From Alphaproteobacteria bacterium (lineage in GTDB: Bacteria; Pseudomonadota; Alphaproteobacteria; Reyranellales; Reyranellaceae): 64,000 nt of DNA. Positions within the stretch are counted from its first letter, which is position 1. Each line of letters begins with the position of its first letter. The notes beneath the pieces were generated by a model. That model was not told the DNA's origin. It searched no databases and saw only the letters and a program-made list of their open reading frames with translations. Of this stretch, positions 10,582 to 29,384 are shown in pieces. The stretch spans positions 1 to 64,000 of the forward strand of contig VGCZ01000012.1 of the NCBI GenBank assembly GCA_016869975.1, written 5' to 3'. Both the position numbers and the translations under genes were made by a program.

Positions 10582-12405
10582 ATGGATCAAAAGAACCTCG
10601 TCGTCGCCATCGCCCTTTCCGTACTGATCATCCTGGGCTGGCAGTTCCTCATGACGCCCTCGCCCGAGGAGCAGCGCAAAGTCGCGGCGGAGAAGCAGCG
10701 CCAGCTCGACGAGCAGCGCAAGGCGCAGCCCGCACCGGGTTCGACGCCGCCGGTGGCGGGCACGACACCGCAGGCTCCCGGCGCGCCGGCGCCCGCGCCG
10801 ACGACGGCGCCGACCGGGTACCTCGATCGTCCGGCGGCGCTGGCGCGTTCGCCGCGCGTGACCTTCCGCACGCCCGAGCTCGATGGCTCGATCGCGCTCA
10901 AGGGCGGACGCGTCGACGACGTGCGGCTGGTGAAGCACCGCGTCAGCATCGACACCAAGAGCGGCATGGTGCCGGTGCTGTCACCCGAGGGCGCGGTCGA
11001 CGCCTACTACGCCGAGTTCGGCTGGGCGCTGAAGCCCGGCGGCACGTCGAAGGTGCCCGGGCCCGACACGCTGTGGACCGCCGATCGCGACAAGCTCGAG
11101 CCTGGCCAGGCGGTGACGCTCACCTGGGACAACGGCGCCGGCCTGATCTTCCGTCAGAAGATCGAGCTCGACCGGAACTTCATGTTCACGATCACCCAGT
11201 CGGTCGAGAACAAGAGCGGCGCCACCGTCGATCTCGCGCCCTACGGCCTGGTGACGCGCCATGGCGAGCCCAAAACCGAGGGCATCTACCTGCTGCACGA
11301 GGGCCCCTATGGCGTCTTCGACGGCAAACTCAAGGAGTTCGACTGGAGCGATTTCAAGGACGGCAAGAACCAGCAGAACCTGCCGACCACCGGCGGTTGG
11401 CTGGGCTTCACCGACAAATACTGGATGGCCGCGCTGATCCCCGATCAGAAGGACAAGGTCACGGGGCGCATCTTCAAGGTCAACGATCCGGTGCTGAAGC
11501 GCTACCAGGCGGATTTTACCGCGCCGCTGCTCACCATCGATCCCGGCCAGACTAGGGAAGCCACGGCGCGGCTCTTCGCCGGCGCCAAGATCGTGCACAC
11601 GATCAACGAGTACACCGAAAAGCTCGCCATCACGCGCTTCGACCTGTCGATCGACTGGGGCTGGTTCTGGTTCTTCACCAAGCCGCTGTTCTGGCTGCTC
11701 GACAAGCTCTTCGGCTTCATCGGCAATTTCGGCGTCGCCATCATGGTGCTGACGGTGATCGTGAAGCTGCTGTTCTTCCCGCTCGCCAACAAATCCTACG
11801 AGTCGATGACCAAGATGAAGAAGCTGCAGCCGGAGATGGAGAAGCTCCGGGCGCGCTTCGGCGAAGACAAGATGAAGATGAACCAGGAGCTGATGGCGCT
11901 CTACAAGCGGGAGAAGGTCAACCCCGCGGCGGGCTGCGTGCCGGTGCTGCTGCAGATTCCCGTGTTCTTCGCGCTCTACAAGGTGCTCTACACCACCATC
12001 GAGATGCGCCATCAGCCGTTCTTCGGCTGGGTCCAGGACCTCGCCGCGCCCGATCCGCTTACCCTGCTCAAGGGCTTCGGCCTGTTCAATTGGCAGGTGC
12101 CGGAGATCCTCAGCATCTTCGACATCGGCATCTGGCCGATCATCATGGGCATCACGATGTACGTGCAGCAGATGCTCAACCCGCAGCCGGCCGACCCGGT
12201 GCAGGCGCGCATCTTCCAGTTCCTGCCCATCATGTTCACCTTCATGCTGGCGCCCTTCGCCGCCGGCCTGGTGATCTACTGGGCGTGGAACAACCTGCTG
12301 TCGATGGCGCAGCAATACGTGATCATGCGCAAGCTGGGCGTGCCGATCACCTTCGGCGCCAAGATGCCGGCCCCGGCCAGCGGCAAGCCGCCCGACAAGC
12401 GATAG
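10582..12405 (+). CDS. yidC: Membrane protein insertase YidC
   Basis: A 607-residue Gram-negative YidC. An N-terminal membrane anchor (about residues 6-22) is followed by a Pro/Ala/Gln-rich linker (about 35-75). A large periplasmic beta domain comes next, and then the five-helix Oxa1-type insertase domain (from about residue 365). The insertase end carries MYVQQMLNPQPADPVQARIF. I chose ATG 10582 because it opens the anchor helix directly (MDQKNLVVAIALSVLIILGW); the upstream in-frame extension lies in yidD. It closes the rpmH operon. Confidence 0.97.
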   Translation: MDQKNLVVAIALSVLIILGWQFLMTPSPEEQRKVAAEKQRQLDEQRKAQPAPGSTPPVAGTTPQAPGAPAPAPTTAPTGYLDRPAALARSPRVTFRTPELDGSIALKGGRVDDVRLVKHRVSIDTKSGMVPVLSPEGAVDAYYAEFGWALKPGGTSKVPGPDTLWTADRDKLEPGQAVTLTWDNGAGLIFRQKIELDRNFMFTITQSVENKSGATVDLAPYGLVTRHGEPKTEGIYLLHEGPYGVFDGKLKEFDWSDFKDGKNQQNLPTTGGWLGFTDKYWMAALIPDQKDKVTGRIFKVNDPVLKRYQADFTAPLLTIDPGQTREATARLFAGAKIVHTINEYTEKLAITRFDLSIDWGWFWFFTKPLFWLLDKLFGFIGNFGVAIMVLTVIVKLLFFPLANKSYESMTKMKKLQPEMEKLRARFGEDKMKMNQELMALYKREKVNPAAGCVPVLLQIPVFFALYKVLYTTIEMRHQPFFGWVQDLAAPDPLTLLKGFGLFNWQVPEILSIFDIGIWPIIMGITMYVQQMLNPQPADPVQARIFQFLPIMFTFMLAPFAAGLVIYWAWNNLLSMAQQYVIMRKLGVPITFGAKMPAPASGKPPDKR

Positions 12406-12446: not shown

Positions 12447-12469
12447 AGCTCAGGCCTGCTGGATTCTGT

Positions 12470-12490
12470 TGCGACTGATTATCATTTGCA
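12470..12490. promoter_or_regulatory. Fur box
   Basis: A 21-base near-palindrome with core TGATTATCA and outer arms TGC/GCA. On the minus strand it begins TGCAAATGATAATCA and differs from a perfect Fur 7-1-7 palindrome only near one end. It overlaps a possible -35 (TTGCGA, 12469-12474) of the gene starting at 12535. Fur bound here would block transcription when iron is plentiful. This is the only clear Fur-type site I see in the window. Confidence 0.75.
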
Positions 12491-12534
12491 TTAAGTGGAT
12501 GAGGTGCAATGGTGAACATCGAGAGGCTGTCGTC

Positions 12535-13032
12535 ATGCCCCATGAATGTCCGGTCGAGGCGCGGAGCCTGGAGAACCTGCGGTGCGCCGAGCGCTTCGTG
12601 GTCTGGGCGCTGCGCGAGTGGCGCCTGCGCTGGAGCGATGGCGAGGCCCGACCCGGGACGCTGCGATGTGGCTTCCATCACGCCAACTGCGGCGACGGGC
12701 TGACGCCCTTCTGCGACTTCATGGAGGCGCTGGTCGCCGGTACGCGCCGTCCGCTCGACGTGCGTTGCATGAACTGCCCGTACATCAGCCCGGATGAGGA
12801 TCGCGTGCTCGACGCCGCCGCGGCGGCGCAACGCGATCGTGACGAGATCACCTGTGCGCTGCTGATGGATGCGCTGCCACGCGCCGCGGCGCGAATCGCC
12901 GTCGGACCGCTGGCCGCCTTCGCGCACAAGATGGCAGAGGCCGGCCTCGTGTTGCCGCGCGGGCCCGCGCTGGCCGGCGACCGTATCTCGATCTGCCGCT
13001 CGACCAATCCGGGTATCGCGTTGATGCAGTAG
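12535..13032 (+). CDS. Cysteine-rich protein under a Fur box, function unknown
   Basis: Not recognised. 165 residues with nine cysteines at 5, 17, 45, 52, 60, 78, 81, 107 and 154. They include a CxxC (RCMNCP, 78-81), and His48-His49 lie nearby. The fold looks helical, with no signal peptide or membrane span. I chose the ATG at 12535 because GAGAGG sits about nine bases upstream; longer in-frame starts would run into the operator region. The Fur box 45 bases upstream suggests expression under iron limitation. A metal-binding, Fe-S or iron-sparing role is an inference from the cysteines and operator; no family match is claimed. Confidence 0.75.
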   Translation: MPHECPVEARSLENLRCAERFVVWALREWRLRWSDGEARPGTLRCGFHHANCGDGLTPFCDFMEALVAGTRRPLDVRCMNCPYISPDEDRVLDAAAAAQRDRDEITCALLMDALPRAAARIAVGPLAAFAHKMAEAGLVLPRGPALAGDRISICRSTNPGIALMQ

Positions 13033-13133
13033 CGATCGTCGCGCGGCGGCTTGAGAAAGCGGCGGACATCGCTTGATTTCGTCGTGGCATCCCTTACCTG
13101 AGGATGACGGAACGCGTTGCCTGCGAGAGATTC

Positions 13134-29240: not shown

Positions 29241-29287
29241 GATCAGGGGCGCCTCGCGGCGTGTGCCCTGCCTCGTCGGCGAGGGCG

Positions 29288-29384
29288 GGTGGGAGACCGG
29301 ACACGACCCGCAGCGAATTCGTTACGGCTGCTTCCTTCCGGACCTGACCGGGTTGGCGAAGACTGCGTCCACGCCGGCCTCCCG
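29288..29384 (-). ncRNA. ffs: Signal recognition particle RNA (4.5S type)
   Basis: The minus strand carries the nearly invariant 4.5S apical loop (GGTCAGGTCCGGAAGGAAGC), which binds Ffh. The flanks fold into one long rod: the 5' segment GGGAGGCCGGCGTGGACGCAG pairs with the 3' segment ending CGTGTCCGGTCTCCC. Length is about 97 bases; the 5' end is set by the promoter and the 3' end by pairing, both to within a few bases. A small hairpin (CCTCG/CGAGG, 29271-29284) follows. The position next to dnaX is common in alphaproteobacteria. Confidence 0.93.

Follow-up and report, generated by a model that had tools for sequence, protein, structure and literature searches.

An unnamed family of small alphaproteobacterial proteins, most of them encoded behind a Fur-type box

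The gene and its Fur-type box

A gene for a 165-residue protein lies on the forward strand at positions 12535–13032 (ATG at 12535, stop codon TAG at 13032) of the window, the 64,000-nucleotide stretch of DNA that was analysed here. That this open reading frame is a true gene follows from its homologues, which are found both in the same genus (82–83% identity) and in other genera (about 30–43%). A longer, TTG-started frame beginning at 12469 was rejected, since it would read through the regulatory box described below and alignment of the homologues favours the ATG at 12535. As an earlier, sequence-only reading of this DNA had described, the protein has nine cysteines (residues 5, 17, 45, 52, 60, 78, 81, 107 and 154), one CxxC motif (C78-M-N-C81) and one His pair (H48-H49). 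Its composition (GRAVY −0.07, pI 6.4), with no strongly hydrophobic stretch (Kyte-Doolittle values over 19 residues are not above 1.32), suggests a soluble protein. AlphaFold, run on a two-sequence input, gave a pLDDT of 38 and no usable structure, so no argument is drawn from the fold, and the six helices predicted in that run are no more than a hint. The product of 12535–13032 (+) can be described as a probably soluble, predicted all-helical member of an unnamed alphaproteobacterial family that is remotely related to DUF6628 (PF20333).

Upstream of this gene, yidC has its stop at 12405, and the 165-residue gene starts 130 bp later; downstream, a DUF533 gene is found at 13104 on the same strand. 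The position next to yidC had been pointed out before and is real, and we consider it incidental, because the locus varies by genus while the box accompanies the gene. With other neighbours in its place outside the genus, yidC was rejected as a functional partner, as was the DUF533 gene, which was not seen to recur beside the relatives. Elsewhere, the window holds an ordinary bacterial small SRP RNA (29287–29384, reverse strand).

The box itself, TTGCGACTGATTATCATTTGCAT, is a 23-bp palindrome at 12469–12491 (no strand assigned; a core at 12470–12490 had been noted previously). It stands 66 bp 5′ of the ATG and contains an inner palindrome, TGAT-T-ATCA. Its earlier description as a near-perfect Fur operator holds for the alphaproteobacterial form, with agreement at 18 of the 20 specified positions of the consensus TTGCRAATGA-N3-TCATTYGCAA, but fails against the 19-mer consensus of E. 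coli Fur, which has no match in the window at up to three mismatches; the alphaproteobacterial form is the right yardstick for this box. Across the whole 4.84-Mb genome, the pattern TGCNANTNANNNTNANTNGCA has a single exact match, at 12469–12491, and its reversed control has none. At two mismatches, 22 sites were found in the genome versus 11 in the control. Being only twice the control, these weak sites count for little, and the decisive evidence for the box comes from comparison of sequences, in its conservation before homologues. One of the 22 sites, similar to the box but weaker, precedes an exbB gene in the same genome.

Three Fur-family genes (PF01475) are present in the window's genome and were assigned to subfamilies by sequence features and neighbours: one Fur (C5:93675; 127.7 bits to PF01475), one Irr-like gene, which adjoins a rubrerythrin, and one Zur-like gene. 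Fur represses its target genes with iron and permits their expression under starvation, and iron repression of the 165-residue gene is predicted from this established biology; we infer that Fur binds at the box and that expression is iron-repressed. Binding of Fur to alphaproteobacterial-type boxes has been seen by gel shift in Sphingobium SYK-6 (PMC7376174), and Fur-repressed genes of Caulobacter include unnamed hypothetical proteins and Bfd (PMC3751524).

The family, its conserved residues and its cysteines

A protein search of 61 nearby genomes detected relatives in 35, and a 9-row profile picked them up in 92 of 385 genomes drawn evenly from the class, spread over 67 of 277 genera. The class was identified as Alphaproteobacteria from named records, and in a phylum-wide sample 45 of the 47 positive genomes belonged to it. 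Several genomes carry two to four family copies. Duplicated members at L104:8066–9286, L111:7999–9100 and L049:7958–9111 comprise a divergent pair with one common box and tandem pairs, and genome G184 has four copies. No relatives were found in viral contigs. Plasmid searches found them only in Azospirillum and Pseudoroseomonas, where the copies are annotated as ‘hypothetical proteins’ and carry a Fur-type box.

The window protein has no match in Pfam, NCBIfam or the PDB sequences, known siderophore, heme and ferric-uptake proteins included. The earlier impression of a protein with no recognised family and no likeness to such proteins was therefore correct. Neither Pfam nor NCBIfam has a model of its own for the family, and searches of these databases and of the PDB sequences, in which the protein itself and alignments of 9 and 62 rows served as queries, gave nothing convincing except DUF6628 for one relative. 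For the window protein this relation is remote: the PF20333 model has no match to it, staying below the Pfam gathering cut-off, and matches 1 of 62 relatives, weakly (E 2e-4). Aligned as profiles with hhalign, the family and DUF6628 agree over 127 columns with a probability of 97.5 and an E of 6e-12, and some genes are matched by both models. The profile-profile match and the double-matched genes together lead us to regard the two as one superfamily. The family is a large, unnamed, Alphaproteobacteria-centred group of small bacterial proteins.

R27 and E88 are invariant in the 92 aligned sequences, and six further residues are strongly kept: D87 (in 87 sequences), Q99 (86), L15 (85), W29 (83), R72 (77) and W24 (74). 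The most conserved motif is D87-E88 (87/92 and 92/92), with its codons at 12793–12798 on the forward strand. In most members the last residue is His, Asn or Gln and the one before it is hydrophobic.

The sequence-only reading had seen in this protein a cysteine-rich, metal-ligand-rich product, and had itself staked that view on conservation of the cysteines among homologues. Family-wide conservation of any degree is confined to the C78-M-N-C81 motif (codons at 12766–12777, forward strand), with C81 kept in 70 of 92 members and C78 partly, in 34 of 92. Both same-genus homologues lack C17, C45 and C52, and one of them also lacks C107; C5, C60 and C154 are nearly absent in the other members, and the His pair does not occur outside the genus. 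The number of cysteines in the family ranges from 1 to 10. A conserved cysteine cluster, by which a Cys-ligated metal or Fe-S protein would be recognized, is absent, C81 alone being widely kept. Since the cysteines are not conserved, a Cys-rich metal protein is not a property of the family, and the proposal built on it, of an Fe-S trafficking or metallophore-related factor, is consequently unsupported. The best explanation is that the 165-residue protein does not act through its cysteines.

Box conservation and gene neighbours

The same palindrome is present upstream of the relatives. When the search region was placed relative to the conserved core, a box agreeing at 15 or more of the 20 positions was found before 50 of 66 class-wide members versus 10 of 739 flanking genes of the same loci, and one agreeing at 14 or more before 58 of 66 versus 24 of 739. 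The question raised at the outset, whether homologues have a common upstream Fur box, is thereby answered in the affirmative. Measured against shuffles, 73 of 95 members carry the consensus at p ≤ 0.01. Most of the box-less members are explained by a wrongly called start, which leaves the box inside the N-terminus, or by second place in an operon that has the box before its first gene. Several of the boxed flanking genes themselves look by eye like iron genes (a bacterioferritin, a PiuC-type dioxygenase and an imelysin-like protein). A clear exception is the genus f172/g270, in which four species have a different common upstream element with TCTAGAA and no Fur box (element loci L118, L203, L204, L205 and L207); a different iron regulator, for instance Irr, may recognise this element.

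At L105:6703–8534 (genome G412), a DUF2325 gene with a Fur-type box near its start overlaps the following family member by a few bases, a possible two-gene Fur operon joining two unknown families. At L097 (genome G159), a family member sits in an apparent iron island, several neighbours having Fur-type boxes of their own; by eye, the neighbours there are an ABC exporter, a PiuC-like dioxygenase, an imelysin-like lipoprotein and a small monooxygenase-like protein.

Most family loci are orphans. At over 85% of the sampled loci neither bfd nor bfr is adjacent, and a Pfam tally of 105 adjacent genes gave no dominant partner, with Ferritin in three. Within the class sample, 8 genomes from 7 GTDB families have Bfd no more than 0.8 kb from the family gene, where random placement would give about 0.05. 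Co-occurrence of the family with Bfd stands at 66/92 versus 66/293 (odds ratio 8.7, uncorrected for phylogeny and genome size). The arrangements vary: five species of one genus have a family-bfd-bfr operon, the order bfd-bfr-family occurs in two families, bfd follows a tandem pair of family genes in another lineage, and in yet another the family gene is convergent with bfd/bfr. At three more loci the family gene and bfd are arranged head-to-head and Fur-type boxes lie between them; one further locus stands close behind a 20/20 box. A search for Bfd in the window's own genome gave no match, and Bfd is therefore not an obligatory partner there. Heme uptake recurs as well. In genus g3 the box separates the family gene from divergently oriented hemP, TonB-receptor and hmuS/T/U genes, and at L108 it stands beside a TonB receptor and a heme operon. 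Bfd is only one among several recurrent neighbours.

DUF6628 is concentrated in GTDB family f14, which looks like Sphingomonadaceae and in which 31 of 120 genomes match. A Fur-type box precedes 20 of 30 DUF6628 genes at p ≤ 0.01 when the automatic start is used, and several others when an alternative start is taken (DUF6628 genes at loci L172–L200). This pattern predicts that the DUF6628 Pfam family belongs to the iron regulon. We found no paper on DUF6628, which, like the present family, has no assigned function; its relation to this family would be a first functional lead.

Proposed role and comparison with known systems

Conservation of the box in the family, together with the bfd, bfr, hemP and heme-uptake neighbours found elsewhere, gives strong support to Fur control, on a far wider scale than the window alone could reveal, and supports a role in iron starvation, as had been supposed from the window. 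The family is very probably a missing part of the alphaproteobacterial iron-starvation response. Linkage to bfd and bfr makes the Bfr/Bfd iron-release module its leading candidate partner. We tentatively favour, as a reading that falls somewhat short of probable, a Fur-repressed cytosolic accessory in freeing or re-allocating intracellular iron that would work with the Bfr/Bfd module or its replacement. With iron plentiful, Fur would keep the family gene silent; with iron scarce, the protein would be made and, small, cytosolic and probably all-helical, would help to free or re-allocate intracellular iron. It would act through contact with proteins of the bacterioferritin/Bfd module, or with those that stand in for Bfd in lineages that lack it, and this contact would be made via conserved polar residues and the C-terminus, not via cysteines. 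We regard as rather doubtful a broader proposal, which makes the superfamily that unites this family with DUF6628 a core third component, under Fur control, in the release of iron from bacterioferritin or in an iron-sparing response at the protein level; its role would then have been overlooked for want of a domain model.

The ranking that we infer puts a Bfr/Bfd helper first, an iron-sparing adaptor as its main rival and an iron or heme carrier third. The adaptor or regulator would be independent of bacterioferritin, a Fur-induced helical protein that binds a regulator, a protease or an iron-rich enzyme and so cuts iron use, perhaps comparable to FbpA-C or RyhB elsewhere. Conserved polar residues (R27, R72, D87, E88, Q99) and a conserved extreme C-terminus with no metal-site pattern are consistent with such a protein, as are the orphan genes with their own Fur box at most loci and the absence of detectable Bfd from the window's genome. 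It would nonetheless leave unexplained why linkage to bfd/bfr recurs in at least seven families, and on balance we think it somewhat unlikely. Unlikely with fewer reservations is a carrier that binds iron or heme via C81 together with its C-terminal His or acidic residues close by, and that passes on what it has bound, for example, from heme uptake or Bfr. The presence of C81 in 70 of 92 members, of a terminal His, Asn or Gln in most, and of links to hemP/hmu and bfr would suit this role, but about a quarter of the members lack C81, and the chain ends with Asn in most of family f1 and with Gln in the window protein, both poor metal ligands.

If the regulator at the box were a Fur paralogue of the Mur or Irr type, the gene would answer to manganese or heme status and not to iron via Fur. 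Rhizobial Fur orthologues are established to act as Mur, and the genome has three Fur-family genes. However, the same box type stands before bfd, TonB-receptor/hemP and exbB, here and in relatives, which argues for an iron regulon and makes this reading improbable. Least credible of all is a Cys-based metal or Fe-S protein, with metal bound by the nine cysteines and the His pair. The CxxC of the window protein has some counterpart in 37 of 92 relatives, yet most of the cysteines are lost within or outside the genus, the His pair goes no further than the genus, and a family whose cysteine count varies so widely argues strongly against it.

About a quarter of the sampled alphaproteobacterial genomes carry a family gene, almost invariably preceded by a Fur-type box, yet no database name for it was found. 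The box and the links to bfd/bfr and heme uptake make the family more interesting than the cysteine content that was first noticed. If the protein does work with Bfd and bacterioferritin, the bacterial draw-down of stored iron would gain a component; as an iron-sparing adaptor, it would give the Alphaproteobacteria a factor of that kind.

Of the systems with which the family can be compared, DUF6628 has the same Fur-type box upstream. It differs in carrying APCC-C..RMT where the family has RC..C..S.DE, in a shorter C-terminus that, unlike that of the family, has no conserved terminal His/Asn, and in its loci, where no bfd or bfr was seen within about 1.5 kb, in contrast to some family loci. 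Bfd (Fer2_BFD, PF04324) and bacterioferritin (PF00210) are likewise under Fur-box control and have operons or promoters in common with the family in several families, but they have no sequence relation to it. Bfd is a [2Fe-2S] protein of 65–75 residues with four conserved cysteines, whereas the window protein has 165 residues, at most one widely conserved cysteine and no match to PF04324, the CxC...CxxC [2Fe-2S] domain. HemP/HmuP is small and cytosolic, and a Fur-controlled divergent promoter can be common to HemP and the family; HemP has about 60 residues and belongs to a different sequence family from the window protein. FbpA, FbpB and FbpC of Bacillus and RyhB constitute an iron-sparing response. 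They have no sequence relation to the family, for which there is no evidence of an RNA partner, but they provide an analogy in being small, Fur-repressed and made under iron starvation, as is proposed here for the family.
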